From positions 3,955,168 through 4,019,167 of the forward strand of contig NZ_CP009528.1 in assembly GCF_000970025.1 (NCBI RefSeq): a stretch of DNA of 64,000 nt, in the 5' to 3' direction. Under the pieces are notes generated by a model, which was not told the origin of the DNA, did not search any database, and saw nothing but the letters and a program-made list of their open reading frames with translations. The DNA is from Methanosarcina barkeri MS. GTDB lineage: Archaea; Halobacteriota; Methanosarcinia; Methanosarcinales; Methanosarcinaceae. Shown piece after piece: positions 39,144-55,394 of the stretch. The translations under genes were made by a program, and so were the position numbers. The stretch's first letter is position 1; each line of letters begins with the position of its first letter.

Positions 39144-39179
39144 GTTTTCGGTTTTTAGGGGGAACCTTAAACTCAGAGT

Positions 39180-39259: not shown

Positions 39260-39271
39260 TATAAAAATCTA

Positions 39272-39281
39272 TTTATATAAA
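39272..39281 (+). promoter_or_regulatory. TATA-like box for the GT2 gene
   Basis: TTTATATAAA lies just after the MITE-like element and about 55-70 bases before the apparent start of the glycosyltransferase gene. Confidence 0.5.
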
Positions 39282-39329
39282 TCGTAGATTCGCTCCCAAT
39301 AATGGAATGAAAATAGTGGGGTCTTATCC

Positions 39330-41069
39330 ATTACCAGCGTATCGGTGGTTTTACCAGCTTATAATGAGGCAGCAAATATCGATAAGGCTGTCTTAGTTAC
39401 AGCAGAAACACTTTTTAAAATAACAGACCGTTTTGAGATCATCATAGCTGAAGACGGCAGCAAGGACGGGACGGACCGGATAGCTTCCAGGCTCGCGGAA
39501 CAGTATGCTTATGTTGTCCACCTGCATTCGGAGAAACGACAGGGCCGGGGAAAAGCTCTTAACCGGGCTTTTAAGGCAGCTTCAGGAGAAGTCCTCTGCT
39601 ATATTGACGTGGACCTTGCTACAGATATGAAATATCTGGAAAAACTGATCAGAGCTGTGAGCACGGATGGCTATGATTTTGCTACAGGCTCAAGAATGAT
39701 GCCCGATAGCGATGCAAAAAGGCCTTTTAAGCGAGAGTTTGCAAGCAGGGGATATAATTTTCTGGTGAGGCTTTTTTTGCATTCAAAACTCTATGACCAC
39801 CAGTGTGGTTTTAAGGCTTTCAAGAGAGAAGCTCTCTTTGAACTTCTCGATGAGACCAAGAATGAACACTGGTTCTGGGATACCGAAATACTTGTCAGAG
39901 CCCAACACAAAGAATATAGAGTAATGGAACTTCCGGTTTACTGGAGACATGGAGGGTCAAGCAAGGTTAATCTGGCAAAAGATGTCAAAGGAATGGGGTC
40001 CGAAATATTCCGTCTCTGGAGAGAACTCTCATCCCCGCTCGAAGTTTCAGGAAAAGGAAAATTCTTTTTAACAGCTGCCCTTGCAATTCTGATCCTTGCG
40101 TTTGTTGCAACCTTCTTGGGTGCATCGGATATTCTGGAAAATGTGAAGCAAGCATCCTTCAGGACTCTGGTTTCAGCTGCTCTGGTGTACTGTGTTTCCT
40201 GGCCTTTAAGAGGAGTTCGTTTCCAACAGATCCTTAACAGGCTTGGAAATCAATACGAGCTTGGGTTTCTTACAGGCAGCATTTTTATCAGCCAATCCGC
40301 AAATGTAATTCTTCCAGCACGGATAGGAGACCTGAGCAGAATGTATATCCTGAAAAAAAGCAAGGACCTTGCCTTTACAACTAGCTTCTCCTCGATAACC
40401 GTAGAAAGAGTCTTTGATATAGTTGCAATAACTTCCATAGCAATACTTGCTTCTTCAGGTGCTACGTCCCGTTTTGAACTTGAACCCTGGATGGAATCCC
40501 TGATAAAGCTGTCCAGACTTGCAGTAGTGCTTTTTTTCTTGATTCTCTTTATTGTTTCTTTCCGAGAAGGCAACGCAAGAAAAAGACTGGAAATTAGAAA
40601 TTCCCAAAACGGGCTCTCTGGAAAGATAAAGATTTTTGCCTCTACTTTTTTACACCAGATAAGCATCGTTGCCGTACGTCCGAGATCGTTTCTAGCAGTG
40701 ACAGCCTCTTCTCTTCTGATATGGGGAATAGATATATTCACCTGTTTCCTTGTCCTCAAATCATTTCCGACAGTAGGAGAAAGTGTCTCGTCCACATATA
40801 TGATATCACTGATTTTCCTGGCTGTAGCCCTGGGAAATATTGCAAAAATAATTCCGATAACGCCTGGAGCTATAGGAACATATGAAGTTGCCCTGACTGC
40901 AGTTTTCGGACTTGGTGGAATCAAACCGGAAATAGGATTTACGGTTGCCGTGCTTGATCATATTATAAAAAATTCAATTACTTTAATAGGAGGAGGTCTA
41001 GCCCTCTCCGAACTCGGACTCAGGTGGAGAGAAGTGCTTTGTACTGATAAGGATGTTTTGAAAGGGTGA
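39330..41069 (+). CDS. GT2 glycosyltransferase with flippase-like (LPG synthase TM) domain
   Basis: About 579 residues. Residues 1-235 are a family 2 glycosyltransferase (SVVLPAYNEA, IIAEDGSKDGT with the DxS, CYIDVDLATD, QCGFKAFKR), as in dolichyl-phosphate sugar synthases; residues 245-560 are an eight-helix UPF0104/LPG-synthase-like membrane domain (SQSANVILPARIGDLSRMYILKK, PITPGAIGTYEVAL). It would make a polyprenyl-phosphate sugar and perhaps flip it. The GT2 first strand is coded 5' of the GTG at 39345 (frame open from 39303), and the codon at 39330 is ATT, 9 bases after GGGG; no ATG/GTG/TTG precedes it, so the true start is in doubt. Confidence 0.88.
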   Translation: MTSVSVVLPAYNEAANIDKAVLVTAETLFKITDRFEIIIAEDGSKDGTDRIASRLAEQYAYVVHLHSEKRQGRGKALNRAFKAASGEVLCYIDVDLATDMKYLEKLIRAVSTDGYDFATGSRMMPDSDAKRPFKREFASRGYNFLVRLFLHSKLYDHQCGFKAFKREALFELLDETKNEHWFWDTEILVRAQHKEYRVMELPVYWRHGGSSKVNLAKDVKGMGSEIFRLWRELSSPLEVSGKGKFFLTAALAILILAFVATFLGASDILENVKQASFRTLVSAALVYCVSWPLRGVRFQQILNRLGNQYELGFLTGSIFISQSANVILPARIGDLSRMYILKKSKDLAFTTSFSSITVERVFDIVAITSIAILASSGATSRFELEPWMESLIKLSRLAVVLFFLILFIVSFREGNARKRLEIRNSQNGLSGKIKIFASTFLHQISIVAVRPRSFLAVTASSLLIWGIDIFTCFLVLKSFPTVGESVSSTYMISLIFLAVALGNIAKIIPITPGAIGTYEVALTAVFGLGGIKPEIGFTVAVLDHIIKNSITLIGGGLALSELGLRWREVLCTDKDVLKG

Positions 41070-41401
41070 ACTACAACCTGGGTAAAGACCAACTTGCTTC
41101 TCGAGTCACAGATGATCACCGGCATCTCCAACGAGCTTTAGTTTGACCCTCACTGGCCCTATTGAGCTCCGTCCATTCATCCCTAATGGCTTTACATGGA
41201 AACAACCTGATACAGTATATTTATAATAGAACAAAAAGAGTAAACAAATAATGTAAATCAGATATGAGTATTTAAATCGAAGAACCTAAGAAAAATCTGA
41301 GTATTTAAACCGGAGAATCTAAGAAATAACTGAAGCACTAAACACAAAAAATTAAAATAATAACCACATGCTTTATTCGAACTAATGGTCAAGTGGAAGA
41401 A
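41070..41401. other. Intergenic region with a direct repeat
   Basis: No accepted gene. Two copies of a 32-35-base direct repeat (TGAGTATTTAAA(T/C)CG.. at 41266-41298 and 41299-41330) precede the ArsR gene. A 24-residue minus-strand frame at 41106-41180 is noted as doubtful. Confidence 0.5.
41266..41330 (+). repeat. Direct repeat upstream of the ArsR gene
   Basis: Two copies of about 33 bases: GAGTATTTAAATCGAAGAA with CCTAAGAAAAATC, then GAGTATTTAAACCGGAGAA with TCTAAGAAATAAC. Placed 70-130 bases before the ArsR start, so they may be regulator sites. Confidence 0.5.
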
Positions 41402-41758
41402 ATGTCTGAAAAAAAAATAATTGAAGTAAAGGATGCATATTGTCTTCCGGAAGATGTGCTTGATGCTGTACATGCGGCAATGAATGAGGATGTGGGAGAA
41501 ATCGTTAGCCTGTTTAAGGTACTTTCAGATCCCACTCGCCTCAGAATTCTCAAAGCCCTTGAAGTCCAGAGCCTCTGTGTTTGTGTCCTTGTGGACTGTA
41601 CGGACCAGCAGCATTCAGCTCTTTCCTATCATCTTAAGCTGTTAAAAGAAGCAGGACTGGTGAACTCGCGAAGAGAACGGAGTTTTCAGATTTATGAACT
41701 CACAGAGTTCGGAAACCTGCTCCTGAAACATATTGAAAAGCACTTTGAAAAAGCTTAA
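41402..41758 (+). CDS. ArsR family transcriptional regulator
   Basis: About 118 residues; GTG at 41393 is the other start. Winged helix: LFKVLSDPTRLRILKALEVQSLCVCVLVDCTDQQHSALSYHLKLLKEAGLVNSRRERSFQIYELTEFG. The ELCVC-type pair LCVC and the additional cysteine DC place metal ligands on helix alpha-3, as in ArsR/SmtB metal sensors (As(III), Cd or Zn). It probably represses a metal export or detoxification gene, but no such gene is adjacent, so its target may be elsewhere. Confidence 0.92.
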   Translation: MSEKKIIEVKDAYCLPEDVLDAVHAAMNEDVGEIVSLFKVLSDPTRLRILKALEVQSLCVCVLVDCTDQQHSALSYHLKLLKEAGLVNSRRERSFQIYELTEFGNLLLKHIEKHFEKA

Positions 41759-42060
41759 ACATAGAAATCAAGAGGAATTTAGTATCCTCTTTGAAATCTT
41801 TTCCATATAGAAATCATTTCCATCGAGCCTATCCTGAAACTCAAAATTTGATTTTTGAATTTGTGATTTTTGAATTTCGTATATGGAACAGTCAGTTGAA
41901 TACCTAATCATTAAACTGATCCTGAAAACTCATAGTGATTTAGAATAAAATAGGTTTTGGGATAAGCTCATCTAGAAATCTTTTCCATATAGAAATCTTT
42001 TCTTTACTCCATCCTTACTTTCTCATAGCTGTTTGAGGGACACTCCGGCCTGGGAAAAGA
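41759..42060. other. Intergenic region with flanking direct repeats
   Basis: Two 29-base direct repeats of GAAATCTTTTCCATATAGAA type (41793-41821 and 41975-42003, 27 of 29 identical) enclose about 150 bases. They may be the footprint of an excised or decayed insertion, or a duplication. Confidence 0.55.
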
Positions 42061-42483
42061 TCAGATTTTATCGGTTGATGCTACAGTTGTGAGCTTTGAG
42101 AACTTTACCCCTTTGAGGGCCATTATAGCTTCGGCAAGCTCCTTAATCTCTTCACCTTCCCCATCGAGAACAATCACTTCAAAACAGTTGTCATGATCAA
42201 GGTGTATATGCACTGAAGATTTTATCAGGTGAGAATAGTTGTGTTGAATATCTGCAATAGCATTTGAGAGCCCCCTTTTAGTATGGTCGTAAATAACCGA
42301 AATGGTTCCGACACGGTAACCCTTAATGTCACCCATCCATTCATAATAAGAAATGTAACTCCTGATGGCATCCCTTATGCCTTCAGAACGAGAAGAATAA
42401 CCTCTTTTTTCGATAATCTCATCAAATTTACCCAGAAGGGTATCAGGAAGGGAAACTCCTATCCGCATAAGTTCTGTTTCCAT
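42061..42483 (-). CDS. nikR: Nickel-responsive regulator NikR
   Basis: 140 residues. Ribbon-helix-helix at the start ([39 protein letters not shown]) and ACT-like metal domain with the nickel ligands H (YDHTKRGL), [12 protein letters not shown] (HxH...C). Binds Ni2+ and represses nickel uptake; nickel is needed for methyl-CoM reductase F430, CODH and hydrogenases. GGTG lies 5 bases before ATG at 42483. The F390 synthetase-like gene and the uptake operon lie a little upstream on the same strand. Confidence 0.97.
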
Positions 42484-42516
42484 AATATCACCAAATAATC
42501 TTGGACTTGTTTACGA

Positions 42517-42540
42517 TATAATACTTTAGTATATTATATG
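42517..42540 (-). promoter_or_regulatory. Palindrome in the nikR promoter
   Basis: Arms ATATAATACT and AGTATATTATAT around two bases, with a two-base bulge on one side. The AT-rich composition includes a TATA-like element, so it could be either promoter or NikR site. Confidence 0.35.
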
Positions 42541-43019
42541 TAGCACTATATATGTTTTTTTCACATAGGTACTAATATAAAAGAGTTGATAACAAATATT
42601 CATTCTTTACAAATATAAATCCTTGGTAATGGTTTACATCTGCCACTAAAAAATATATAAGTTTTTTTATTTTGGAAAAAGTAACTATCCAGTCTGGAGA
42701 AAACAATATCAACAAACATTGTTATTAAGATATGAAAGGCAAATTTATTTGAAATCAGTTTATTTAGTTATTGACCATTCATTGTACTTTATCTGAACTC
42801 ATCAATATATAACCATTTTTATTTGTCAAGTAAAAACCGATATCAATAAAAGAATTTTGGTTTTACTGAATAATATATAGGAAATGACATAAAAATATAA
42901 TAAAAGGTAGAAAAAAGTCTTAAATAGAGTATTTTTCAACAGAACTTTAAGAAAATTGTGATTAAGATTGTTCTCAGGCACGAATACATCTACCAGATAA
43001 GCGCACTTTTCCGTCATCA

Positions 43020-43160
43020 ACAATTTCATTATTCCATGTGTTATTTCAGTATTCCATGTGTTATTTCATTATTCCATGTGTTATTTCAGTATTTTCTATG
43101 TCATTTTAGCATTCTCTGTATTTGTTTCAGCATTATATGCGTCATTTCAGCATTACTCTA
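43020..43160. repeat. Degenerate 18-19-bp tandem repeat
   Basis: Unit TATTCCATGTGTTATTTCA, three clear copies (43030-43090) and four or more diverged ones (CAGTATTTTCTATGTC etc.). Overlapping plus-strand frames are low-complexity and not coding. Confidence 0.75.
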
Positions 43161-43183
43161 TACCTTGCTCTCTTCTTGTTCTC

Positions 43184-44542
43184 TTACCGCCTGTCTACAA
43201 GCCTTTTAGGCCTGCCTTTTATCCTGCTCAGTTCGAGCCCCATAGGACCTGTGAAATTGAATACTATTTTAAAAGTGCCTTCGGCATAAGCTCTGGAAAG
43301 CAGAGGTTTATATCTGAGAAAAGTACGAAGAAAGTTTTCTTTTATAAGATTCCGATCGCACACCTCAGGATTTTCACATTCCATACTAACTCTGAGTACG
43401 GTTTCTCCCTCGTCTTCTGTACCATAAAGAAAAGCCTCATATTCTCCGGTCAGGTAGTCCATGTTTTCACGCTGAAAAACGCCCTTTTCCACATCTACGC
43501 GGTTAAAGGGAGTTACTTCTACCCACGCGGTTTCAGCTTCCCGCTGAGGGGTCAGAATTTTCATATGCGTCCTTCCGCAGGGACACTGTTTGCGCGTAAG
43601 CACCACAGTCGTGTCTTCGGTATCATAGTTTAAAAGAAGAGTTCCTGCTTTTGCCCCAACAGGCAGCAGTGTGCTCAGGATAACTCTTCCGCATTCTCCG
43701 TCAGGCACATAATTTTCGAGATGGGGATCGTAAATATCAACATGGACAAGATCTTCAGGCACATGCAGCCCTGACACCTCATCACACTCACCGCACATCG
43801 TGCCTTCCGTGCTTCCATAGGTGTTATAAACAGGACAGCCCCAGATTTCGGAAAGATAATTCCTTGACTCGTCAGCAAAGGCTTCTCCTCCTACAACCAG
43901 TTTATTTACACCTGACTCTCGAGGGTCAATGCCCTCTACCCGTAACCTTCTGGCAAGGCTCAGGAGTTTGAATACGCTGCCTACTATGCCTGTAGGCCTG
44001 TAAGCTTCGATAACTCGCAGGGGAAATGTGCACTTGCCCTCAGGAATAATGCTCATACCAAGCTGCCTGGCCGCAAGGGTCATGGTGTTTGCCCCTACAT
44101 TCATCCCATAAGAAGCACAGACAACAACCCTGTCTCCAGGACCAAAACCCTGTGACCTGAAAATACGAGCGTATTTTTCCGAATACCTTTCCCAATCCTC
44201 CCATGTAAGGAAAAAACTCTTCGGGTTTCCGCTGGTTCCGCTAGTCTCATGAACTGTGAAAACATCCTTCCAGCCCACACTCCTGAACATGAATTCGCTC
44301 GTTTCTGGAGGCTGGTTTTCGCGGATAATGTTTCCCGAGATTATTGGAAGGTCCAGAAGATCATCATGGGTTTTGATCTCAGCCGGGTTCACACCCTGCT
44401 TTTCAAACCATTTTCTGTAAAAAGGAGAATTTTCTGCCGCATATTTTACCGTGTATCGTACCCGCTCCTCTACGAGAGCATCTAGCTCTCCCCTGTCCAT
44501 GGTCTCGATTTCAGGGTTGAAATAAGGTTTTGAGTTGTCCAT
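43184..44542 (-). CDS. Coenzyme F390 synthetase / phenylacetate-CoA ligase-like enzyme
   Basis: About 452 residues of the ANL adenylating family. The P-loop-like motif is TSGTSGNPKSFFLTWEDW, A5 is YNTYGSTEGTMCGEC, A7 CGRVILSTLL, and the cysteine pair CPCGRTHMKI near 340 is typical of PaaK-like enzymes. In methanogens this family adenylates or guanylates the oxidised F420 to F390; the acid substrate is otherwise open. The start at 44542 (MDNSKPYF) follows TTGGGGG; the frame to 44557 begins at that site with TTG. Lies between nikR and the uptake operon, 257 bases from the latter. Confidence 0.85.
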   Translation of the reverse strand: MDNSKPYFNPEIETMDRGELDALVEERVRYTVKYAAENSPFYRKWFEKQGVNPAEIKTHDDLLDLPIISGNIIRENQPPETSEFMFRSVGWKDVFTVHETSGTSGNPKSFFLTWEDWERYSEKYARIFRSQGFGPGDRVVVCASYGMNVGANTMTLAARQLGMSIIPEGKCTFPLRVIEAYRPTGIVGSVFKLLSLARRLRVEGIDPRESGVNKLVVGGEAFADESRNYLSEIWGCPVYNTYGSTEGTMCGECDEVSGLHVPEDLVHVDIYDPHLENYVPDGECGRVILSTLLPVGAKAGTLLLNYDTEDTTVVLTRKQCPCGRTHMKILTPQREAETAWVEVTPFNRVDVEKGVFQRENMDYLTGEYEAFLYGTEDEGETVLRVSMECENPEVCDRNLIKENFLRTFLRYKPLLSRAYAEGTFKIVFNFTGPMGLELSRIKGRPKRLVDRR

Positions 44543-44798
44543 AGAAAGCGCCCCCAACTGGAATAATAGGATATAGAAAGCCTGTTATTTATTGACTTCA
44601 AAGATGAAACGTTTTCTGGAGGCATTTAAATTAATAGTCTCTTTAAACTTTAAAAATAGTAAGGTGGGACAGATAAGATCCGGGTCTCTTCCCTTCCGCC
44701 TTTTTTCTCTTTAGACTGCGTTTTATGGATGCGTTTTATGGATACGTTTTATTTCACCTTATTTTTCGTAGATCTTTTCTATTTTTGTCATACTTTGT

Positions 44799-45578
44799 TT
44801 ACCTTCTTAAGGGTAAACACACTTTCCTTTTCATATCTTCAATTTCCCTGACAGCTACATTTACACCATAGACTGAAGACATCATCTTACTGGTTACAAC
44901 GGTTTCAACTTTTCCTACGGCAACCAGTCTACCTCCAGACAGAGCTGCAGCCTTGTCACCTAACAGAAAAGCATGGTCTGGCATGTGTGTATTCATTACA
45001 ATAGACATACCAAGTGAAGCCAGTTTCTGGACAGTTTCCAGCACAAGGACCTGGTTGCCAAAATCAAGGTGAGAAGTTGGCTCGTCCAGCAAAAGCAGAG
45101 CAGGCTTCTGGACAAGAGCCCTGGCAATAAGCACCATTTGACCCTGTCCTCCACTGAGGTTAGCAACCGGCCTTTCTGCAAGATCGGAAATTCCCACCAT
45201 TGCTAAAGATTCTTTTGCAAGTTTAATATCCTCTGCGCCAGGGGATGCGAACATGGAAAGGTGTGGAGCACGGCCCATGACTACAAAATCCAGCACAGTA
45301 AATGGAAAAACCACTTCATTCTGCTGAGGTACGTAACCTATATGCCTGGCAATTCCTCTTACCCCAAGAGAAGCTGTATCCTTTCCCTGAATAAAGACAG
45401 ACCCCACAGCTGGTTTGAGGATTCCTGCAATACATTTGATAAGTGTAGATTTTCCTGCTCCGTTTGGACCCAGAATACACATGATTTCGCCCTTTTTCAG
45501 CGAAAAAGATACATTTTCAAATACTGGATTGTTTCCATAAGAGAAAGCAAGGGACTTTACTTCCAGCATCAGTTCCAT
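44799..45578 (-). CDS. ABC transporter ATPase (iron/cobalamin type)
   Basis: 259 residues; starts at 45578 or at 45569. FecE/BtuD-type ATPase: Walker A ILGPNGAGKSTLI, Q-loop YVPQQNEVVFP, signature NLSGGQGQM, Walker B LLLLDEPTSHLD, and the H-loop NTHMPDHAF. Drives import of metal chelates or corrinoids with the permease. The start overlaps the permease stop (TGATG), so the genes are translationally coupled. Last gene of the five-gene operon. Confidence 0.95.
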   Translation of the reverse strand: MELMLEVKSLAFSYGNNPVFENVSFSLKKGEIMCILGPNGAGKSTLIKCIAGILKPAVGSVFIQGKDTASLGVRGIARHIGYVPQQNEVVFPFTVLDFVVMGRAPHLSMFASPGAEDIKLAKESLAMVGISDLAERPVANLSGGQGQMVLIARALVQKPALLLLDEPTSHLDFGNQVLVLETVQKLASLGMSIVMNTHMPDHAFLLGDKAAALSGGRLVAVGKVETVVTSKMMSSVYGVNVAVREIEDMKRKVCLPLRR

Positions 45579-46588
45579 CCCATACGCCCCTTCTTGATAA
45601 GATATGCAAACACCGGAGCTCCTACCAGGGAAGTTAGGATTCCCAGGGGAATTTCTGTAGCTACAATAGTCCTTGAAAGGTCATCCACGACCAGCATAAA
45701 CGATGCTCCAATAATCATACTCATAGGCAAGAGGCGGCTATAATTGGGACCAACAATCATTCTTGAGATATGAGGCACAACAAGTCCGACCCACCCAATG
45801 ACACCGCTGATACTGACTGCTGCTGAGGTTACAAGAGTCGCACAAACAATGATAACCAGGCGCGTTTTTTCCACATCCGTCCCAAGAGCTTTAGCTTCTT
45901 CGTCTCCCAAGGACAAAATGTTGATACGCCACCTGAAAAGAAACAATACTAGAGTCCCAATAAATATAGGCAATAATATGTAGAGCAGATCACCGTACCT
46001 GACACTGGCAAGGCTTCCCATAAGCCAGAATACTATTTCAGGAAGTTGATCATAAGGATCTGCTACATACTTTGCCAGCGACGTAAGAGCCGTAAAAATA
46101 GAGCTCACAATAATTCCCGAAAGCACGAATACTAAAGTTCCAGTACCTTTGCTGACTTTACCCATACTTATAGCAATAAACATCGCAAGGAGTCCGAAAG
46201 CAAAAGCCGTCAACTGTATCATCAGATAATTATTCCAGAGCAATATTGCAAGGCATGCTCCAAAACCTGCCCCTGAACCTACTCCAAGGATATAAGGAGA
46301 CACAAGTGGATTACGAAAGATTCCCTGGAAAGAAGCTCCAGCTATGGAAAGAGCTGCGCCTACCAGTAAAGCTGCAAGTATCCTCGGTAGCCTTACATTG
46401 AATAGTACCGTGTGTTGAGTGGAGACTGAAATAGGAGTACCAAAAAAAAGAGATGAAAAAACCTTCATACTCTCATCCACAACTGCCGACAGTGGGGTCT
46501 GGTATCTTCCAATAAAAAGGGAGATTATGAGTAATGCGATAGGTAACAGGTACACCAGAGTAGTGCGATTAAACTTGTAATCAGGCAT
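45569..46588 (-). CDS. ABC transporter permease (FecCD/BtuC family)
   Basis: 339 residues with about ten membrane helices. FecCD signature: NPLVSPYILGVGSGAGFGACLA, LGDEEAKALGTD, GVIGWVGLVVPHISRMIVGPNYSRLLP and the end VGAPVFAYLIKK. The channel of an iron-siderophore, heme or cobalamin uptake system. Its first codon overlaps the end of the radical SAM gene (stop at 46581, start at 46588), which again shows coupling. Confidence 0.95.
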   Translation of the reverse strand: MPDYKFNRTTLVYLLPIALLIISLFIGRYQTPLSAVVDESMKVFSSLFFGTPISVSTQHTVLFNVRLPRILAALLVGAALSIAGASFQGIFRNPLVSPYILGVGSGAGFGACLAILLWNNYLMIQLTAFAFGLLAMFIAISMGKVSKGTGTLVFVLSGIIVSSIFTALTSLAKYVADPYDQLPEIVFWLMGSLASVRYGDLLYILLPIFIGTLVLFLFRWRINILSLGDEEAKALGTDVEKTRLVIIVCATLVTSAAVSISGVIGWVGLVVPHISRMIVGPNYSRLLPMSMIIGASFMLVVDDLSRTIVATEIPLGILTSLVGAPVFAYLIKKGRMGWN

Positions 46589-48353
46589 GAGTATACCTCA
46601 TAACATGCCTGGACCAGATGCCAGAGGTAGGTCTGTGAAATGACCTGTTAGGCTTTGCTTCCTCAAAAGGCATACCATAAAACCTTAGATAAAACTCATC
46701 TGCTTCCTTTTTCAGGTCAATTACTGAGCTTTCCGGGTTCAGTTTATCTGCTATGTACATGAGTCCCAGTATCCAGCGAGGGTTCCCGAAATCCCAGGAA
46801 GGGGGAATTTCATAGACATGGTGCTCTTTTACTGCATCTGCAGATATGCCGTATTGATGGCACAGGCCATAAAATTCATCTAGAGGACGAGAAAGGAAAC
46901 CTGAAATAAAAATTGTCTCAGGATTCTGCTCATTTATAAAAGAGGGAGAAACATTTACACCCGGTTTGCCTTCTTTTTGAATCTGTTTATTGATACTGAC
47001 TCCCCCAGAAAATGCCACAAGGTTATTTTCCATTCTCCCAGCGTTCAGGGCAAAAAGAGGAGAACCCATACAATAATACACCTTATGATTACTATTTTTC
47101 GCTGCAAGAGACTGGACAAGTTCCAAGCGTTCACGAATAAAAGAAATAAGCGCTTCTCCTTTTTCCGACTCATTTGCTTTTTCAGCAATAAGCCTGACAA
47201 ATTCAAGATAGGAGTATGGCTGTTGTATCATATGATGTATTTGACTCAGGGTTTCAGGATTGGAAACCTTTACCCAGATTTCAATTACCCTGTGGTTGTC
47301 CAGTATTCCCAGGCATGTAAGTACTGCATGGACCATACTGAAAGCCCGGCTTATCCTGTAACCACCCATGAAACCTTCCTCGTTGAAGCTTTCAGTTGCA
47401 GTCGTTCCTTTAACCGGGATATTTTTACCACAAGTGCAGGTGTAATTTATCCAAGATTTTAGAGGTTTGGAACCCATGGGCCCGTAAAACTCCCTTTCTG
47501 CAAGAAGGCTACCGCATTCAGGACAGTATGTATTTAATGATTCCGTACCTGGAGAATTGAAAAGATAGACATAGTCTACATGCTCACGCAGAGCGGCGCA
47601 CAGGTTCTCAGCCTCTCCTATAGAGGGTTCAAGCTCAATCGGAGCATCCCCAAAAGGAATGAATCTCATGACCTGAACCGGAATTGTAGGAGAAATATTA
47701 GACAATGCTTTTGCAACATTTATCACGTCGTCTTCATTTCCCCTTAAGTATACGACCGAAGTTTCAATATGCACACCCATATCAAAAAGCCTGGATATAT
47801 TGCGGAAAACAGGTGCAGAGGACGGAACTCCACAGTTTATATAACTCTTATCAGAATAGCCTTTAATTCCAATATTCATGAAATCTACAAGCTTTCCAAG
47901 CTCCTCCAGTGTCTCACCTGTGAAATAACAGTTGGTAGAACAGCCTGCAAGTAAACCTTTTTCTTTTGCCTGTACCACAAGGTCCTTGAAAAGATAATAG
48001 TTTGCAGCAGGCTCATTGAGTGTAGAAACTACACCCAGACATCCCTGCTGCACTGCCTTTTCCACCACCTGAGACGGGGTAACCACAGGAAGGTCAAGCG
48101 ATTTCCCTGAAGCTAACAGGCGAGCTACGCAGCCTGAACACTGGAAGTTGCATCCAGTACTGAAAACCTGAAGGAATTTACCTGAGGGATAATAGTGAAG
48201 TAAGGGAATGGTTTCTATAGAAACAGGATATGCTCCAAGATATCCGAGATCAGGGTCCTGGATAATAGTATCACCAGTGCATGAGTAGTTCCCGCACCTT
48301 CCCCTGCTCCATTCATCGATATCACACCTGAATTCACACACATTGCACTTCAT
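46581..48353 (-). CDS. Radical SAM protein with zinc-ribbon and SBP-like C-terminal domain
   Basis: 590 residues. N-terminus: cysteine-rich MKCNVCEFRCDIDEWSRGRCG, as in AMMECR1-linked/PflA-like radical SAM proteins. Radical SAM core from about 55: FSTGCNFQCSGC, CX3CX2C at 68, 72, 75 for the 4Fe-4S cluster; VVSTLNEPAA (108-117) is the GGE-like part. A zinc ribbon follows (C277, C280, C306, C308). Residues 420-570 look like the second lobe of a cluster A-II binding protein (VYYCMGSPLFALN 425, AFSGG 447, NPETIFISG 477), with no signal peptide. The combination suggests modification of the substrate imported by the same operon. Stop overlaps the permease start. Confidence 0.8.
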   Translation of the reverse strand: MKCNVCEFRCDIDEWSRGRCGNYSCTGDTIIQDPDLGYLGAYPVSIETIPLLHYYPSGKFLQVFSTGCNFQCSGCVARLLASGKSLDLPVVTPSQVVEKAVQQGCLGVVSTLNEPAANYYLFKDLVVQAKEKGLLAGCSTNCYFTGETLEELGKLVDFMNIGIKGYSDKSYINCGVPSSAPVFRNISRLFDMGVHIETSVVYLRGNEDDVINVAKALSNISPTIPVQVMRFIPFGDAPIELEPSIGEAENLCAALREHVDYVYLFNSPGTESLNTYCPECGSLLAEREFYGPMGSKPLKSWINYTCTCGKNIPVKGTTATESFNEEGFMGGYRISRAFSMVHAVLTCLGILDNHRVIEIWVKVSNPETLSQIHHMIQQPYSYLEFVRLIAEKANESEKGEALISFIRERLELVQSLAAKNSNHKVYYCMGSPLFALNAGRMENNLVAFSGGVSINKQIQKEGKPGVNVSPSFINEQNPETIFISGFLSRPLDEFYGLCHQYGISADAVKEHHVYEIPPSWDFGNPRWILGLMYIADKLNPESSVIDLKKEADEFYLRFYGMPFEEAKPNRSFHRPTSGIWSRHVMRYTHA

Positions 48354-48356
48354 TTT

Positions 48357-48980
48357 TTAACCTTCCTTGCTTAATACCATCCAGAATCCCGAATCATTCT
48401 GGATTACATGACAGGGAATCTCGGTCTGCCTTCCAGCTTCCTTTATAGCCCGAAGGTTTTCAGGACTGAGACGTTCTTTTGAACTGGCACGCCAATCCGG
48501 ATCTATTTCGACCATCTTATCAGAAATCTGCGCTTTCAACTCTTTTGTGCCGAAGCCACCTCCTACCCATGCCTGCCCACCAGGAGCAAGGACGCGAGAG
48601 ATCTCATTAAAGGCAACAGGCAGGTCATTCCAGAAAAATACGGAACCCCGACTTACTATGAGGTCTGCACAATTATTTTTTAAAGGTAGCAGGTGTACAT
48701 CAGACTGCACAAGAGCAACTTTCCCTGAAATGCAATGGCGTAAGGCTTTGTTTCGTGAAAGCCTGCACATCTTAGTTGAAATATCAATACCATATACCTG
48801 CATGTCCGTGATTTCCGCAACAGCAATTCCAAGGGATGCTATACCGCATCCCAGGTCAAGGCATATACCTTTCTCTATCCCGCTTTGCTTGACGATATTA
48901 GCAGCTATTACAGGGTAGATAGGGGCAAAGATGTTCTCTGCAATATAGGGGAAATCCGGAGATTTGTCCTGCTCGCTCAC
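48357..48980 (-). CDS. Class I SAM-dependent methyltransferase
   Basis: 207 residues, Methyltransf_11 type. Motif I is CLDLGCGIASLGIAVAE, the ribose-binding acidic residue is in VYGIDIS, motif IV DLIVSRGSVFFW and motif VI VLAPGGQAWVGGG. Starts with GTG at 48980, which overlaps the stop of the binding-protein gene (GTGA) with AGAGGC upstream. It lies three bases before the radical SAM gene. A methyl acceptor within a chelate or cofactor pathway is the likely target; the substrate is unknown. Confidence 0.9.
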   Translation of the reverse strand: MSEQDKSPDFPYIAENIFAPIYPVIAANIVKQSGIEKGICLDLGCGIASLGIAVAEITDMQVYGIDISTKMCRLSRNKALRHCISGKVALVQSDVHLLPLKNNCADLIVSRGSVFFWNDLPVAFNEISRVLAPGGQAWVGGGFGTKELKAQISDKMVEIDPDWRASSKERLSPENLRAIKEAGRQTEIPCHVIQNDSGFWMVLSKEG

Positions 48981-50074
48981 GTCTTAGCCTCTGATGAAGG
49001 GTTAAGTAGCGCATTCAGCTCTTTGTCTGTGAGATTATAGTGGAAGAATTCCGAGTAGAACTCACGAGTCAGATTGGAGAGGTCCATATTTGCAAAACGG
49101 TCCGGATACAGCATTTTTGCAGTCCAGGCAGTTCCGAGGATAAGGTGAGGGCCCTGTGGCCTGTCAATCCAGCAGAAAGGATTCTGAGGAGCAAGGTATA
49201 CTTTCTTATTTTTCACAGCATCTATACTTGCCCAGAGAGAATCAGAGTAAACTGTCGAATAGAACTGTGGATTTGAGGTGATAATTATCTCAGGGTTCCA
49301 GTTCATAACCTGCTCAATTGAAACCTGAGTCATGCCACTCCCTGGCGTAAGCTGACAATCTGCAACATTAATACCACCGCAAATATCAATGACCTGAGAG
49401 TGCTGAGAACCTGAAGGATCAGTCATTAGCCCCTTTGGACCTTCGGCATAATAAACACGTACTTTATGGTCTTCAGGAATATCTTTTATAGTGTTATTTA
49501 TCTCACTAAGGACTGAACTGCGGAAATCAATCAGTTTTTGCGCTTGGTCTTCACAATTAAGAAGTTTACCTACATATTGTATGGTAGGATCAGATTTGTT
49601 GACGAAGATAATAGAATCATTAACAGCCACTACAGGAATATTTCCAAAACTTTCCTGTCTGCGCTCTATAGCTTCATGGATTTCCCCATCAGTGGTGTAC
49701 CCTTCAATTACAATGTCAGGATGCATTTTGATTATAGTTTCATAGTTTCCTGTCTGTGTTCCGAACCAGCCCCCTATTACAGGCAGACTTGAGTAATTTT
49801 CAACCATGTAAAGTTGAGTAAAATTATTTTTAAAATTCCACCCTGCAAGTTTCTCTGGAGAAAGCATATACACGAGGATGGTGGATGGCGGAGAAGTAGC
49901 TACAACTGAAGAGATTTCCGCCGGCACAGTTAACTGCCTGCCCAACATGTCGGTGATCTGTATCGTGCTTGAGTTCTGAACAGCCTGCTGATTCGCATTT
50001 TCTGCACATCCACAGGACGCAACAGCCAGAACCAGAATAGAGAGTAGTAGTATTGTACTTATTTTTCCACGCAT
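48977..50074 (-). CDS. ABC transporter binding lipoprotein (iron/cobalamin type)
   Basis: 365 residues. Signal peptide 1-22 with a lipobox-like VLAVASCGCAEN (Cys 21 or 23). Then a cluster A-II (FepB/BtuF/TroA) fold: IQITDMLGRQLTVP, VVATSPPSTILVYML, ETIIKMHPDIVIEGY, VVAVNDSIIF, and VIDICGGINVADCQLTPG, QVSIEQVMNWNPEIIIT. Captures a metal chelate or corrinoid outside the membrane. First gene of the operon, behind a palindrome-bearing promoter; overlaps the methyltransferase gene by 4 bases. Confidence 0.93.
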   Translation of the reverse strand: MRGKISTILLLSILVLAVASCGCAENANQQAVQNSSTIQITDMLGRQLTVPAEISSVVATSPPSTILVYMLSPEKLAGWNFKNNFTQLYMVENYSSLPVIGGWFGTQTGNYETIIKMHPDIVIEGYTTDGEIHEAIERRQESFGNIPVVAVNDSIIFVNKSDPTIQYVGKLLNCEDQAQKLIDFRSSVLSEINNTIKDIPEDHKVRVYYAEGPKGLMTDPSGSQHSQVIDICGGINVADCQLTPGSGMTQVSIEQVMNWNPEIIITSNPQFYSTVYSDSLWASIDAVKNKKVYLAPQNPFCWIDRPQGPHLILGTAWTAKMLYPDRFANMDLSNLTREFYSEFFHYNLTDKELNALLNPSSEAKT

Positions 50075-50107
50075 AGAAATACCTGACAGACTTTTATAGT
50101 TTAAGCG

Positions 50108-50145
50108 TTATGTTTGCATGAACATAATGTTATAAATATATATTC
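50108..50145 (-). promoter_or_regulatory. TATA box and palindromic operator of the uptake operon
   Basis: On the minus strand TATATATTTATA (50131-50142) is a TATA-like box and 15-30 bases downstream is TTATGTT-N6-AACATAA (50108-50127), a perfect 7-base inverted repeat. The palindrome covers the expected transcription start, 35 bases before the ATG, which fits a repressor site for a metal regulator. Confidence 0.6.
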
Positions 50146-50425
50146 TAACAAAGAGAAACTAGAAAAACGCTCTTGAGCACACTTTTTATAAAGTTTTTTA
50201 GTTTTCATGATCGACTGATAGTTTTCAGTATATTTGCTATATCAGTTGATTGCTCTCAGGGGACATTTATAGGAAAGCAGTATCTTATTTCTTATTACTT
50301 TCCATATATAAATTTGCTTTTAGCGATTTAGATTAGTCAGCCCAATTTTCATAGAAAAGTTGAGCACATTCACAATCGTTATTGTTACCGATTTTCGATC
50401 TGACACGAATTTATTGGATGAAAGT

Positions 50426-50478
50426 ACGGAAGAAACACACATTTACTACTTATTTTCGTATCTTCCGTGCTTTCCGTG
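50426..50478. repeat. Dispersed hairpin repeat (CCGTG family), second copy
   Basis: GTACGGAAGA at 50424-50433 pairs with TCTTCCGTGC at 50461-50470, followed by TTTCCGTGGC. The motif CTTCCGTGCTTTCCGTGG is the reverse complement of CCACGGAAAACGCGGAAAGC-like sequence at 30140-30160. Confidence 0.5.
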
Positions 50479-50756
50479 GCTTTCAAAAAATTCATTTTTG
50501 ATATACTTTAGAATCAATGAACTGAACTCATTATAAGATGGAAAAAGAAAATGGAGAATTATAGTGTTATGCTTCATTTTACATGTGCATAGATAGTATT
50601 TAGAGCAGCAGGACTTCTCGGATAGGTTTTAAGTGAACCAATAAAAATTAGTAAGTTATTTATAATAAATCGCATATGAGTAATTTGGTAGTAAATAGAG
50701 TTAAACGCAGGGTATAGTGCATTCCAATAGCTACATATTATGAACCTCTAAGCTAA

Positions 50757-51110
50757 AGACTTAGGGAATTTCCTGAGTCATCCCCCCAACCAACATTCTG
50801 GAATGATCTGCAAAAGGCCCGACAGAAAGTGACTGATGCCCCTGTCAATGGCAAAGCAATAGAGATCTCTGGAGGAGAGTATATAAATAGAGGGGAGTGC
50901 AAAGTTGAATTTCTCTGTAGCGGGTGTAAGTATAGATGGGAATTACAGTGCAATACTGAACACCCAGCTAGCTGTCCGAAGTGAGGTTCCGAAATCGTTT
51001 ATCGAGTCGGAGGCGACGGAAGAGAGAAAAGGTTCATTAAGAACGATTACTGCTATCCCAAAAGCGAGGGGAAAACAGCAGCGTTAAACGTTAAAGCAGG
51101 AAGTGTGAAA
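50757..51110 (+). pseudogene. Zinc-ribbon protein gene broken by an in-frame TGA
   Basis: A frame open from 50757 reads ...NGKAIEISGGEYINRGECKVEFLCSGCKYRW..., then CNTEHPASCPK, then TGA at 50982-50984, then GSEIVYRVGGDGREKRF and on to the next gene. The TGA stands exactly where the fourth zinc cysteine of CPKCGSE should be, a one-base change from TGT or TGC. No start codon is found near 50757. It looks like a recently disabled small zinc-ribbon protein gene; readthrough is unlikely since Methanosarcina recodes UAG rather than UGA. Confidence 0.55.
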
Positions 51111-51111
51111 A

Positions 51112-51486
51112 ATGACAAAAATTGCTATACCATCGATGAATGACAGTGGATTGGAATCTGATGTTTGTTATCATTATGGCTCATGCGAATATTTTACTAT
51201 CGTGGATGTAAAAAATAAAAATATTGAAAGTGTTAAAACAATAAGCAACCTGTCTCCTGAGATCGAGCATAATTGCGCTGCTCCATCAAAAATTTTGGAA
51301 TCAAATAATGTCAATGCTGTGCTCGTCGCGGGTATTGGCGGAAGGCCATTAATGTCATTGGCGGAAAAAAACATCAAAGTATTTGCAGGAATAACGGGTA
51401 AGGTTTCCAACGCAGTTGAGGACTATAATAATGGCTTGTTGCAAGAATTATCTATGAACGGCACCTGTAATTGTTCTCATCACTAA
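51112..51486 (+). CDS. NifX/NifB-type dinitrogenase iron-molybdenum cofactor domain protein
   Basis: 124 residues. IAIPSMNDSGLESDVCYHYGSCEYFTIVD is the usual beginning, and VLVAGIGGRPLMSLAEKNIKVFAG the core of the NifX/VnfY family (Nitro_FeMo-Co, PF02579). These bind metal clusters; small archaeal members are carriers or chaperones for iron-sulfur or Fe-Mo cofactors. The tail CNCSHH could also bind metal. GGAAGTG lies before ATG. First of three close genes on the plus strand (then DUF4405, DUF169). Confidence 0.88.
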   Translation: MTKIAIPSMNDSGLESDVCYHYGSCEYFTIVDVKNKNIESVKTISNLSPEIEHNCAAPSKILESNNVNAVLVAGIGGRPLMSLAEKNIKVFAGITGKVSNAVEDYNNGLLQELSMNGTCNCSHH

Positions 51487-51544
51487 AGGACTTAATTCAC
51501 AATGTTTGAGAGCTTGAATCAGGGCTATCTAACGAGGTGAAACC

Positions 51545-51859
51545 GTAAGCCGACAAGAAACCAATTACTTAATAGACCTTATTCTGACAACTCTATTTTT
51601 TGTTGTTGCAGGTACAGGTTTAGTTATGCATTTTTTAATACCTTCAGGAATTCCAAGAGGGCAGTATGTAGTATATATGGGATTAACGAAAGCTACCTGT
51701 ATTTGGATACACAGCAAAGCAGGAATCCTGATAGTTATTCTTATAGTTGTCCATCTTATCCTGCATGGTCAATGGATCATATGTACCACAAAGAAATTTT
51801 TCAGAAAAGGAAAGAAAAACACTATTTGTGAGACCAATACAGTGACCGATAAAGTCTGA
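51545..51859 (+). CDS. DUF4405-like membrane protein, start codon uncertain
   Basis: The ATG at 51626 gives 77 residues, but the frame is open to 51537 and encodes SRQETNYLIDLILTTLFFVV and then AGTGLVMHFLIPSGIPRG, the expected first helix of the family. No ATG, GTG or TTG is in frame; GTA at 51545 follows AGGTGA by 5 bases and may be a mutated GTG/ATG. With the second helix (IHSKAGILIVILIVVHLILHGQWI, heme-type His pair) it would be two-helix, 104 residues. DUF4405 proteins resemble the membrane anchors of cytochrome b-type proteins. Confidence 0.65.
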   Translation, partial: VSRQETNYLIDLILTTLFFVVAGTGLVMHFLIPSGIPRGQYVVYMGLTKATCIWIHSKAGILIVILIVVHLILHGQWIICTTKKFFRKGKKNTICETNTVTDKV

Positions 51860-51903
51860 TAAGAAAACTTTTTAAAGATAATATAAAAATTGGAGTTGAG
51901 AAC

Positions 51904-52593
51904 ATGGATGTAAAAGAGATCAATAAATATGGACAAGAACTTGTAGACTGTCTGAAACTGAAGACTTCTCCTGTTGCAGTAAAGCTGATCCCAAAAGGAG
52001 GAGAAATTCCTGAAGGAATGAAAGAAGTGGATGAAGCTATGAGGCACTGCCAGCTGGTTGACAGAGTTAGAAGAACAGGCGAGGAGTTCTATACCCTTAT
52101 CGATGACCAGATGTGTAAAGGTGGCGCTGGTGCAATGGGCCTTGGTGAAATGCCTCCAAAGGTCGCAAGTGGAGAATTTTATTTTAATAAACTCAAACAG
52201 TTTAGCACCCAGGGCGCTGCAAGGCGTACCCTTGAAAGAGTTCCCAAGCTTCCACCGCACTCAACCGAAGCTATCCTGTACTCTCCTCTGGAAAAAGCCA
52301 CTTTTACTCCAGATGTTGTTGTCGTTATCAGTAATCCTAAACAAATAATGCTACTTACACAGGCTGCAATGTACAAAACCGGAGGCAGGATCGAAGCGAG
52401 TTTTGCAGGAAAGCAGAGCCTGTGCTCCGACGGGGTTGTGAATGTATACAAAGAAGGCAAAATCGGAGTCACAGTCGGTTGCAGCGGCAGCAGGACATAC
52501 TCCAAAATCGCAGACGAAGAAATGATTATGGGAATTCCCATTGAACTTCTGGCTGATGTAACTGCTGGTCTTAAGGAAATCTGCCCGAAATAA
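51904..52593 (+). CDS. DUF169 domain protein
   Basis: 229 residues. DUF169 members share the N-terminus (LVDCLKLKTSPVAVKLIP), a CxxC-like pair around MRHCQL and MCKGGAGAMGLG, and SFAGKQSLCSDGVVNVYKEG with GVTVGCSGSRTYSKI near the end. Function unknown; cysteines are conserved and metal or cofactor binding is likely. GGAG lies 9 bases before the ATG. Third gene of a plus-strand group with NifX-like and DUF4405-like genes (spacing 45-60 bases), then a MITE-like element. Confidence 0.9.
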   Translation: MDVKEINKYGQELVDCLKLKTSPVAVKLIPKGGEIPEGMKEVDEAMRHCQLVDRVRRTGEEFYTLIDDQMCKGGAGAMGLGEMPPKVASGEFYFNKLKQFSTQGAARRTLERVPKLPPHSTEAILYSPLEKATFTPDVVVVISNPKQIMLLTQAAMYKTGGRIEASFAGKQSLCSDGVVNVYKEGKIGVTVGCSGSRTYSKIADEEMIMGIPIELLADVTAGLKEICPK

Positions 52594-52732
52594 ATTTTGA
52601 AAAGGGTATCTTTAGGCTGTGTAGAGTTATTCTGAAATAATGAACTCCACAACCTGAGACGAATAACCTAATACATTTTGTTTGTTTCATCATCTTGAAG
52701 TGGACCTGGATAGGTTTTCCACAAAACCTATC

Positions 52733-52814
52733 TATAGTCACGCGGCTAAATAATGCAACTGCTCAAATGAGATACAATGAGATTTTTGTTGCAACAATTA
52801 CAGGCGTGACTATA
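52733..52814 (-). mobile_element. MITE-like element, copy 2 (opposite orientation)
   Basis: 82 bases with TATAGTCACG and CGTGACTATA at its ends. Its reverse complement aligns with 39180-39259 over nearly all positions. Sits just downstream of the DUF169 gene. Confidence 0.75.
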
Positions 52815-52935
52815 ATCTTCAAGTAAGCATTAATTCATGCCAGTCCTTTCATGAAACTATGTTTTAATAATAATAATAATAATAATATTAGAATAATATC
52901 AAAAACAAGATTTTCCATAAGTGTTTACCTGCAGG

Positions 52936-53007
52936 AAATCAATAGTTTGAAGGAAATCAATAGTTTGAAGGAAATCAATAGTTTGAAGGAAATCAATAGT
53001 TTGATTT
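52936..53007. repeat. 18-bp tandem repeat, four copies
   Basis: Unit GAAATCAATAGTTTGAAG, four nearly identical copies. In frame it would read KEINSL repeats, but there is no other sign of coding. Confidence 0.85.
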
Positions 53008-53211
53008 TCGTTCTGATTAATAAAATAAATAAGATTCTGTTTTTGAGAGATTCAGTAAGTAAAAATGTATATAGCCATGATGTTATAAAAGAAAAATAGG
53101 TTAATTAATCTTTAAGCAACTTTCCTGGGTACACATATCAGTTTTAGAATATGTAAGAAGACAATTTACTTTATTTTTAACCTGAGCTAAAACAAAGCCT
53201 TTTTGGAGTTA

Positions 53212-53607
53212 TTAACTCTCAAAAGGTACAAGGTACACACCATCTGCTCTTTTTTGCCCTTTTAACAGCTCACAATGCCTCATAATAGCAAACTGGTTCT
53301 CGGTTTCCAGAAGGGATATTTGAAACTTTTTTGCAATTTCTTCCTTTCTTGCTCCACCGCTGGAGACGATAAATTCATAGATGGCTTTTTGTAATTCAGT
53401 CAGACCCTCTGTACCTTCAAGCCCGGCTTCCTTCCGGAAGAATTTCTTGGAATAAGCTGCCCAGGGATCACAGACCTGAATTTTGTGGTGAGCTTCTATA
53501 AAACAATCTTCACAGAAAACCTTGCCTTCCTCTTCTATGCAATCTTCTTTTTCCAGTTCACATCCACAAATGTGGCATTTTACAGGATTAGTTATCTCGT
53601 CGGTCAA
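53212..53607 (-). CDS. Zinc-finger/HTH regulator-like protein (short paralogue)
   Basis: 131 residues. A treble-clef-like zinc finger (CHICGCELEKEDCIEEEGKVFCEDCFIEAHH) at 11-43 and a C-terminal winged helix (IYEFIVSSGGARKEEIAKKFQISLLETENQFAIMRHCELLKG). The same two parts in the same order form residues 70-198 of the 54008-54604 product, which has an extra N-terminal HTH. Likely a DNA-binding regulator with a metal or redox-sensing finger. It ends the group; the AhpD-like gene lies 17 bases upstream on the same strand. Confidence 0.7.
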   Translation of the reverse strand: MTDEITNPVKCHICGCELEKEDCIEEEGKVFCEDCFIEAHHKIQVCDPWAAYSKKFFRKEAGLEGTEGLTELQKAIYEFIVSSGGARKEEIAKKFQISLLETENQFAIMRHCELLKGQKRADGVYLVPFES

Positions 53608-53624
53608 TATTTCACCTCAGTTCT

Positions 53625-53954
53625 TTAAACATTCAATTCATCCAGAATTTTAAGAACCACCACAGATCCATACGCTACTGCAGGCCCACCAGCCATTACT
53701 ATGGCAGTACTGACAGCCTCAAGGATCTCCTCACGAGTTGCTCCCAAACGTACAGCTTCAGGAACATGCTTCCATAGACAGTATTCACAACGCAGAGATA
53801 CTGCAACTGCAACCATCATGAGTTCTTTTGTTCTGGCACTTAATGCTCCATCCTTAATAACTTCAGAATGGAGCCCAGAGAGTGCATCCATTACTTTTGG
53901 AAGTTGTTCAGCCATAACTTTTGTCTTTTCATTCATGTCAATTCTTTCTGTCAA
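53625..53954 (-). CDS. Carboxymuconolactone decarboxylase family (AhpD-like) protein
   Basis: 109 residues, all-helical AhpD fold. The redox cysteine is seen in VSLRCEYCLWKHVPEAVRLGATREEILEAVSTA, which is CxxC-H as in AhpD. It probably transfers electrons in peroxide or nitrosative stress defence, or acts as a thiol-disulfide relay. It lies between two related zinc-finger/HTH genes on the same strand (53 and 17 bases away), suggesting shared transcription and that the regulators respond to its redox state. Confidence 0.9.
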   Translation of the reverse strand: MTERIDMNEKTKVMAEQLPKVMDALSGLHSEVIKDGALSARTKELMMVAVAVSLRCEYCLWKHVPEAVRLGATREEILEAVSTAIVMAGGPAVAYGSVVVLKILDELNV

Positions 53955-54007
53955 GATTTCACTTCCTCAACAGAGATATTTTTATAGTAAGTTAATTTTA
54001 TAATAAG

Positions 54008-54604
54008 TTAAGAATCAAAAGGCACAATACAGATTTCATCTCCTATCTTCCGCCATTTCACAAGCTCACAGTGCCTTAATATTGCAAGCTGGTTCCTAGC
54101 TTCCTGGGGTGTAAGCCCAAAAAGTTTAGAGATTTTTTCAGGCGTAACCCCTCCTTCTACCTGTATAAATTTATAAAGTTCTTTTTGAATGTCTGTTAGA
54201 CCTTCTGTGCCTTCCAGACCATGATTTTTTCTAAAGAGTTTTTTAGAACGTACAGCCATAGGATCTGCAAACTTGATTCTCTGGTGCTCTTCCAGATAGC
54301 AGTCCTCACATATTGACTTTCCATTTTCTAGAATATACTCATTACCAGGAATTTCCTTCCCGCACACAGGACATGTTACAAAGTAGGAAATACTTTGATC
54401 GAGTTCCCGATTGCCAGATTTATTCGTTTTTACCAAGCCGTGAAACTCCAGATAACTAACAATTTCGTATACTGTTGACCTGGATAATCCATATCTTGCT
54501 TTTGCTTTTTTTATAACGTCTCGAACATGGAACCCGCAATCTATATGGGCTTCTTTTATGCATTCAATAATCCAGGTTTCTTCTTCGTCAAGTACAAGTT
54601 TCAT
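54008..54604 (-). CDS. HTH / zinc-finger / HTH regulator-like protein
   Basis: 198 residues. N-terminal winged helix (IIECIKEAHIDCGFHVRDVIKKAKARYGLSRSTVYEIVSYLEFHGLV, 13-60), then zinc finger (CPVCGKEIPGNEYILENGKSICEDCYLEEHQ, 74-104), then a second winged helix (LYKFIQVEGGVTPEKISKLFGLTPQEARNQLAILRHCELVK). Likely regulator of its own group; the finger may sense metal or redox. Upstream lies the divergent PadR gene with an array of palindromic half-sites between. I do not know a named family. Confidence 0.72.
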   Translation of the reverse strand: MKLVLDEEETWIIECIKEAHIDCGFHVRDVIKKAKARYGLSRSTVYEIVSYLEFHGLVKTNKSGNRELDQSISYFVTCPVCGKEIPGNEYILENGKSICEDCYLEEHQRIKFADPMAVRSKKLFRKNHGLEGTEGLTDIQKELYKFIQVEGGVTPEKISKLFGLTPQEARNQLAILRHCELVKWRKIGDEICIVPFDS

Positions 54605-55018
54605 CGAATTCTCCCGCCAGACAACAAAAACACGGGGTTTCAGACATTACAGAAGGTTTTAGACTTTCCCTTTTTACTAAGGCAAATCTTTGAATTTTAT
54701 TTTTCTTATAAAATATGTCTCTCTATATTAATAGAGATAATAGAATATTAAGTTATCGGTATCTATATATAGTTGATTTCTTTTCTTAAAAGAGAATAAC
54801 AGAATAGGAGAATAAAACTCAAGTTTAAAGCAGAAAGCATATATACAAAAACATCTTAGTGTAAGTTACACTTTGATGTAATTAATATCATGATGTAATT
54901 AGTATCTTAGTGTAATTAATATCTTAGTGTAATTAACACCTAGATATTGTCTGAATATAAATCGAACTGCTATAAAACTAAAATCTCCAATCCCCTAAAA
55001 AGAATCAAACGTGTTGTT
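54605..55018. other. Divergent promoter region with repeat operators
   Basis: Contains TATA-like CTATATATAG near 54765 for the minus-strand gene, the operator array (54858-54940) and TATA-like GAATATAAATCG near 54952 for the PadR gene. Confidence 0.6.
54858..54940 (+). promoter_or_regulatory. Palindrome and repeated half-sites upstream of the PadR gene
   Basis: AGTGTAA-G-TTACACT at 54858-54872 is a perfect palindrome. It is followed by four half-site-like copies of (GA/TA)GTGTAATTA at about 17-base spacing: GATGTAATTAATATC, GATGTAATTAGTATC, TTAGTGTAATTAATATC, TTAGTGTAATTAACACC. The layout suggests cooperative binding by PadR or by the zinc-finger regulator. Confidence 0.5.
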
Positions 55019-55354
55019 ATGCCCAGAAACACATACTTCCGTCATACACCTTCATTTATACTGCTCTTCCTGGCACAGAAATCCGCTTATGGAGCCCTTT
55101 TATTCAAGAGACTTGACAAAGAAATGCCTTTCAATCTGATAGATACTCCTGCGCTCTATAGGGCACTTAACGATCTGGAAAAAGAGGGAGCAGTTGAAGC
55201 ATACTGGGACACTTCAGAACCAGGCCCAGCAAAAAAATGGTATAAGATAACCCAAAAAGGAATCGAAAAGTTGGGTGAACTCAAGCAGGATATTGAAAGG
55301 AGAAAAAGAGACCTGGATTTTTTCCTGGAAACTTACGAAAAGTTACAAAACTGA
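55019..55354 (+). CDS. PadR family transcriptional regulator
   Basis: About 111 residues from ATG at 55019 (MPRNTYFRHTP); the open frame to 54947 is not supported. Winged helix with the PadR pattern: SAYGALLFKRL, PALYRALNDLEKEGAVEAYW and AKKWYKITQKG, then a C-terminal helix for dimerisation. Represses transport genes in response to small molecules. Followed directly by two half-permease genes in the same direction, so it most likely controls them. Confidence 0.9.
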   Translation: MPRNTYFRHTPSFILLFLAQKSAYGALLFKRLDKEMPFNLIDTPALYRALNDLEKEGAVEAYWDTSEPGPAKKWYKITQKGIEKLGELKQDIERRKRDLDFFLETYEKLQN

Positions 55355-55394
55355 AGCCCTGGAATTCCTGTAAATACAGAATGGAGGGGTTCTC

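Follow-up and report, generated by a model that had tools for sequence, protein, structure and literature searches.

Siderophores, heme, corrinoids and nickel chelates are the usual ligands of ATP-binding cassette (ABC) transporters of the FecCD type and of class III binding proteins. It is reported that MolBC-A, a FecCD-type system, imports molybdate and that molB is repressed by molybdate (PMC4031551). In this study, we analysed a stretch of 64,000 nucleotides from Methanosarcina barkeri MS (NZ_CP009528.1, positions 3,955,168 to 4,019,167; hereafter the window), in which a minus-strand operon has the composition of MolBC-A, a FecCD permease together with a MolA-like binding protein, and also encodes a methyltransferase and a radical S-adenosylmethionine (SAM) protein fused to half a binding protein. 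In the order of transcription, the genes are:

48977..50074, minus strand: substrate-binding lipoprotein, class III (cluster A-II), 365 amino acids (PF01497, Peripla_BP_2, 4e-24)
48357..48980, minus strand: class I SAM methyltransferase, 207 amino acids (PF08241, Methyltransf_11, 5.1e-19)
46581..48353, minus strand: radical SAM / half-binding-protein fusion, 590 amino acids (PF04055, Radical_SAM, 3.8e-12)
45569..46588, minus strand: FecCD-type permease, 339 amino acids (PF01032, FecCD, 1.9e-91)
44799..45578, minus strand: ABC ATPase, 259 amino acids (PF00005, ABC_tran, 3.1e-35)

We read this operon as a predicted member of the ModE (molybdenum) regulon, because the ModE-type box in its promoter is common to modA, fmdE and the vnfH region, and because the genome encodes a ModE. 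The first-pass annotation of the window, which was made from the letters and their open reading frames (ORFs), did not mention the conserved palindrome at 50107-50128. The two promoter elements are:

50131..50140, minus strand: TATA-box-like element (TATATTTATA) in the promoter of the operon, with its TTTATA part invariant in 8/8 Methanosarcina
50107..50130, no strand assigned: putative ModE-type operator, the palindrome ATTATGTT-CATGCA-AACATAAC, an exact match kept in 8/8 Methanosarcina and in other genera

The upstream regions of the eight Methanosarcina orthologs have diverged except for the tandem TATATTTATA-like and ATTATGTT-N6-AACATAAC elements. The box adjoins the TATA box on its downstream side, about 33-56 bases ahead of the ATG, and since it lies over the expected transcription start, repression by molybdenum-loaded ModE would be the natural reading. 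The box TTATGTT-N6-AACATAA has four exact copies in the genome, against 0.06-0.11 expected from the window composition. These precede the operon of the window, a third copy of the lipoprotein gene, fmdE (molybdenum formylmethanofuran dehydrogenase) and a divergent pair of FecCD and binding-protein genes. Two of the seven one-mismatch sites lie upstream of modA and between a fusion paralog (69% identical) and vnfH, while the other five have no sensible target and were taken as chance. Exact and one-mismatch sites were used in the scan; three mismatches gave hundreds of chance matches. The identity of the target genes was clear for modA (TIGR01256, 222 bits, cut-off 62.5) and VnfD (1007 bits, cut-off 823). 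Compared with the ModE consensus of Escherichia coli, ATCGNTATATA-N6-TATATANCGAT (PMC545781), the box has equal N6 spacing and the TAT-T core, but its inner bases agree only in part (TATGTT for TATATA). The predicted ModE carries helix-turn-helix and TOBE/molbindin domains in one frame of 204 amino acids; its match to TIGR00637 (E 1.8e-17) does not reach the curated cut-off, which is reached in only 6 of the archaeal genomes sampled. ModE control of modABC and of the nitrogenase types has been reported in Methanosarcinales (PMC9765008).

The same box was observed in further genomes. In a genome of 5.75 Mb (G381), it precedes modA, fmdE, the lipoprotein gene, the fusion paralog and the alternative nitrogenase operons, and in other genera of the family it stands before the operon at five loci (L045, L048, L049, L050 and L051). 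The box is absent before the operon in G376 (L046; family f5), and no ModE was found in that family. A gene for a NikR-type nickel regulator at 42061-42483 (minus strand) is conserved in five close relatives, and no link between it and the box of the operon was found. NikR was considered as the regulator of the operon and dropped; its gene is close by, yet the box fits molybdenum genes.

The coupling of the five genes agrees with the first-pass annotation, in both ORF coordinates and Pfam domains. The GTG start of the methyltransferase gene overlaps the end of the lipoprotein gene by 4 bases, the radical SAM gene follows after 3 bases and overlaps the permease gene by 8 bases, and the permease and ATPase ORFs overlap as well. 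The TGATG junction described between these two arises from an ATG inside the ATPase ORF. No Rfam riboswitch was found in positions 38000-56000 of the window.

The fusion protein is the unusual member of the operon, and its parts are:

48294..48347, minus strand: N-terminal four-cysteine motif C3-X2-C6-X3-C10-X9-C20, invariant in 42/42 sequences
47709..48164, minus strand: radical SAM core, residues 64-215, with C68-X3-C72-X2-C75 (PF04055, 3.8e-12; cysteines invariant)
47430..47525, minus strand: zinc-ribbon-like cysteines 277, 280, 306 and 308, invariant in 42/42
47217..47396, minus strand: conserved linker, residues 320-379 (GGYRxTRAxEMVHAI...), in place of the N-lobe, unmatched by binding-protein profiles and conserved in the alignment
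46656..47216, minus strand: linking helix and C-lobe, about residues 380-566, with the WDFGSPRW motif (hhalign, hmmsearch)

The conservation of cysteines was scored over 42 full-length fusion sequences, including a divergent second subfamily. The CX3CX2C motif and the zinc ribbon behind the core, both noted before, were present with their cysteines invariant in all 42 sequences, and the motif and the Radical_SAM domain place the protein in the radical SAM superfamily. TIGR04337 (AmmeMemoRadiSam) matched the first 315 residues of the fusion in 21/21 members scanned, at 86-88 bits against a curated cut-off of 220. A true AmmeMemo enzyme is encoded elsewhere in the same genome (379 bits), and the partner genes MEMO and AMMECR1 were neither found within the operon nor recognised among the recurrent neighbours of the fusion. 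Identity as a glycyl-radical activase was dropped, as the fusion scored below all cut-offs. The only solved chains matched by the radical SAM profile were those of NifB (E 4e-5, weak), and a NifB-like role was likewise dropped for want of anything beyond this match.

The C-terminal region had been likened to a cluster A-II binding protein without a signal peptide, and a comparison of residues 320-590 with binding proteins had been proposed as a refuting test. Homology was found: profile-profile comparison with the lipoprotein family of the operon gave 98.7% in hhalign (E 3.5e-16), and hmmsearch with the fusion C-terminus retrieved 4hn9 (7e-16) and 4pag (8e-14). The absence of a signal peptide also held, but the likeness begins only at about residue 380, and the alignments start after the N-lobe, so that a complete two-lobed class III binding protein is not present. 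Peripla_BP_2 reached 7e-5 on this region, with 22.7 bits against a gathering score of 27.5. The fusion C-terminus is therefore half a binding protein, and the radical SAM barrel may form the other wall. The domain border is supported by G159 (L057), in which the two parts are separate adjoining genes; L071 may show the same arrangement, which simple ORF calls alone indicate there. AlphaFold modelling of residues 320-590 gave a predicted local distance difference test (pLDDT) score of 59; its PDB matches (4hn9, 4pag and 4ovk) are partly circular and were not counted as independent, because the input alignment included operon lipoproteins.

The fusion and the lipoprotein were found to occur together. 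Of the 393 genomes sampled in the phylum, 49 encode the fusion at full or nearly full length, 47 encode a member of the lipoprotein subfamily (E <= 1e-60) and 43 encode both. A Fisher p-value for this co-occurrence overstates the case because the genomes are related, but the agreement within the window's own family, in which the same 22 of 62 genomes carry both and absence recurs, is strong. According to neighbour ORFs called by a simple script, of which single rows may be wrong, the methyltransferase gene lies immediately upstream of the fusion gene in 25 of 43 cases (-50 to +22 bases); in 24 of the 43, a gene for a FecCD permease is present within 8 kb. The first-pass annotation had held that it would be refuted if the enzyme genes were not conserved with the transporter, and these neighbourhoods do show conservation. 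Two divergent fusion subfamilies share genomes, with their genes arranged tail to tail (L059:8657-12249; L057:8201-11142).

Taken together, these data suggest a molybdenum-responsive uptake and processing operon that is repressed by ModE and that imports a molybdenum complex whose ligand is processed in the cytosol; we give this reading a probability of about 0.5. ModE with bound molybdate would sit on the promoter box and keep the operon off, and molybdenum shortage would turn it on. The lipoprotein and the FecCD transporter would then import a molybdenum-bearing species. As the ModE-type box points to molybdenum, the cargo is probably a molybdenum (or tungsten or vanadium) species and not an iron siderophore or a corrinoid, and a complex or chelate seems likelier than bare molybdate, for which the cell has modAB. 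The simplest reading of the two enzymes encoded in the operon is that they act on the imported ligand. The methyltransferase and the radical SAM enzyme would do so in the cytosol, where the half-binding-protein domain could hold the ligand against the radical SAM barrel, the barrel replacing the missing N-lobe, and molybdenum would become available to formylmethanofuran dehydrogenase and nitrogenase. That the ligand is bound and then modified or dismantled in the cytosol, as was suggested before for an imported chelate, may reasonably be proposed and is the leading candidate mechanism. Its full form, a scavenging route for chelated molybdenum in which the radical SAM enzyme, with its half-binding-protein grip, and the methyltransferase dismantle the ligand after FecCD import and free the metal, is proposed only tentatively.

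The opposite direction of chemistry also has to be weighed. The methyltransferase and the radical SAM enzyme could build a molybdenum metallophore, with the half-binding domain recognising the product or a precursor, and the ligand would be secreted and re-imported in its loaded form. Biosynthesis and uptake genes of metallophores are usually co-transcribed, and the pair of methyltransferase and radical SAM genes occurs without nearby transporter genes in L053, L054, L056 and L061. At some related loci, an O-methyltransferase and a DUF364 protein are encoded as well; the DUF364 structure paper suggested condensation or hydrolysis in chelator synthesis and described a neighbourhood with molybdenum, tungsten and vanadium transporters (PMC2954201). 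On the other hand, neither an exporter nor a scaffold-building enzyme recurs among the conserved neighbours of the fusion. The missing exporter moderately favours processing after import, and the chemistry would thus be breakdown or modification rather than synthesis, so that we consider a metallophore pathway possible but doubtful. Plain molybdate, tungstate or vanadate could instead be imported as in MolBC-A, with the enzymes serving another purpose under molybdenum shortage, for example the maturation of a metal cofactor, and the half-binding domain acting as a metal carrier. The nearest solved chains to the lipoprotein include MolA (3psa, 7e-27) behind 4pag (9e-56) and 4ovk (3e-28), and a fusion paralog (L040:8567-10492) without a methyltransferase stands divergent from vnfH-nifI1-nifI2-vnfD-G-K (11427-16184) across a shared ModE-type box. 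The match to NifB would also fit cofactor maturation, but it could reflect the shared core alone. Because the genome has modAB for molybdate, and the enzyme genes lie inside the transport operon between the lipoprotein and the permease, plain oxyanion import is unlikely.

The first-pass annotation had taken the system for siderophore or corrinoid uptake, and iron-siderophore, heme, corrinoid or nickel-chelate import with release of the ligand in the cytosol would suit the usual ligands of these protein families as well as the NikR gene close by. The operator common to modA, fmdE and the vnf/anf clusters speaks otherwise, as do the curated B12 and siderophore models BtuC, FhuB, FecC, IsdE and BtuF, for which permease, ATPase and lipoprotein all scored far below the cut-offs (BtuC 229 bits against 461; BtuF 36 bits against 234). 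Domain searches of the operon proteins gave no HemN-type match either, in line with the earlier view that the radical SAM protein is not HemN-like. This cargo is thus very improbable.

Several points weigh against the molybdenum uptake and processing operon that we favour. An operon of the molybdenum regulon need not carry molybdenum, for the alternative nitrogenases in the regulon need iron or vanadium; we infer both molybdenum as the metal and a complex as the cargo. The lipoprotein is closest to 4pag, for which no ligand is known, and the near neighbours of the operon include the gene of a nickel regulator. The link to the box is confined to the family with ModE, and no such box was found in the other fusion-bearing methanogens. 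AlphaFold modelling of the whole fusion with seven close sequences reached a pLDDT of 35, and its domains could not be placed relative to each other.

Other genes around the operon and its relatives were also observed. Divergently upstream of the operon lie a Nitro_FeMo-Co (PF02579) protein gene at 51112-51486 (plus strand), kept in five close Methanosarcina loci, and a DUF169 protein gene at 51904-52593 (plus strand). Beside the third lipoprotein copy, a peptide/nickel-type ABC operon stands between two similar class I methyltransferase genes (L143:7045-13827); here, too, methyltransferases accompany an operon for the uptake of a metal or peptide. An exact ModE-type box was seen upstream of FecCD and ATPase genes that lie beside two homocitrate-synthase-like genes (L041:2450-6425). 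Tandem binding proteins, near the fusion or in fusion-bearing genomes, were represented by two PF01497 stretches in one frame of 666 amino acids (L052:248-2248) and two lipoprotein-like matches in a frame of 778 amino acids (G238:C5:41672-43588).

Methanogens and diazotrophic archaea depend on molybdenum or tungsten and live in sulfidic settings with scarce molybdenum. If our reading is true, these organisms would obtain molybdenum by a chemical step beyond a pump, and a radical SAM enzyme would be given a part in freeing a metal or in making metallophores. The shared box predicts that molybdenum depletion induces the operon along with modA and the alternative nitrogenase, and the box together with the fusion gene offers a simple marker for finding such systems.

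No description of the fusion was found in the literature searched, with subscription-journal full text outside the search. The transporter part is of a known kind, while the putatively molybdenum-regulated radical SAM/half-binding-protein fusion with its methyltransferase is undescribed in that literature. Judged by sequence, the operon resembles the molybdate/tungstate importer MolBC-A (HI1470-1472) of Haemophilus influenzae in its FecCD permease, ATPase and MolA-like class III binding protein, and we know of no radical SAM enzyme or methyltransferase described with MolBC-A. Over residues 1-315, the fusion resembles the AmmeMemoRadiSam enzyme (TIGR04337) and glycyl-radical activases, and it differs from the former by the extra half-binding-protein domain. 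In its linking helix and C-lobe, that domain is homologous to class III (cluster A-II) binding proteins such as BtuF, FhuD and MolA, from which it differs by the lack of an N-lobe and a signal peptide and by its score under the Pfam gathering score. ChuW and HutW, the anaerobic heme-degrading radical SAM methyltransferases, differ from the operon in their HemN-type domain, in its predicted molybdenum-type regulation and in its separate class I methyltransferase. The likeness to them is in idea alone, an imported metal ligand being acted on by a radical SAM enzyme, and if the dismantling route is true, it would be the molybdenum counterpart of radical SAM heme degradation.

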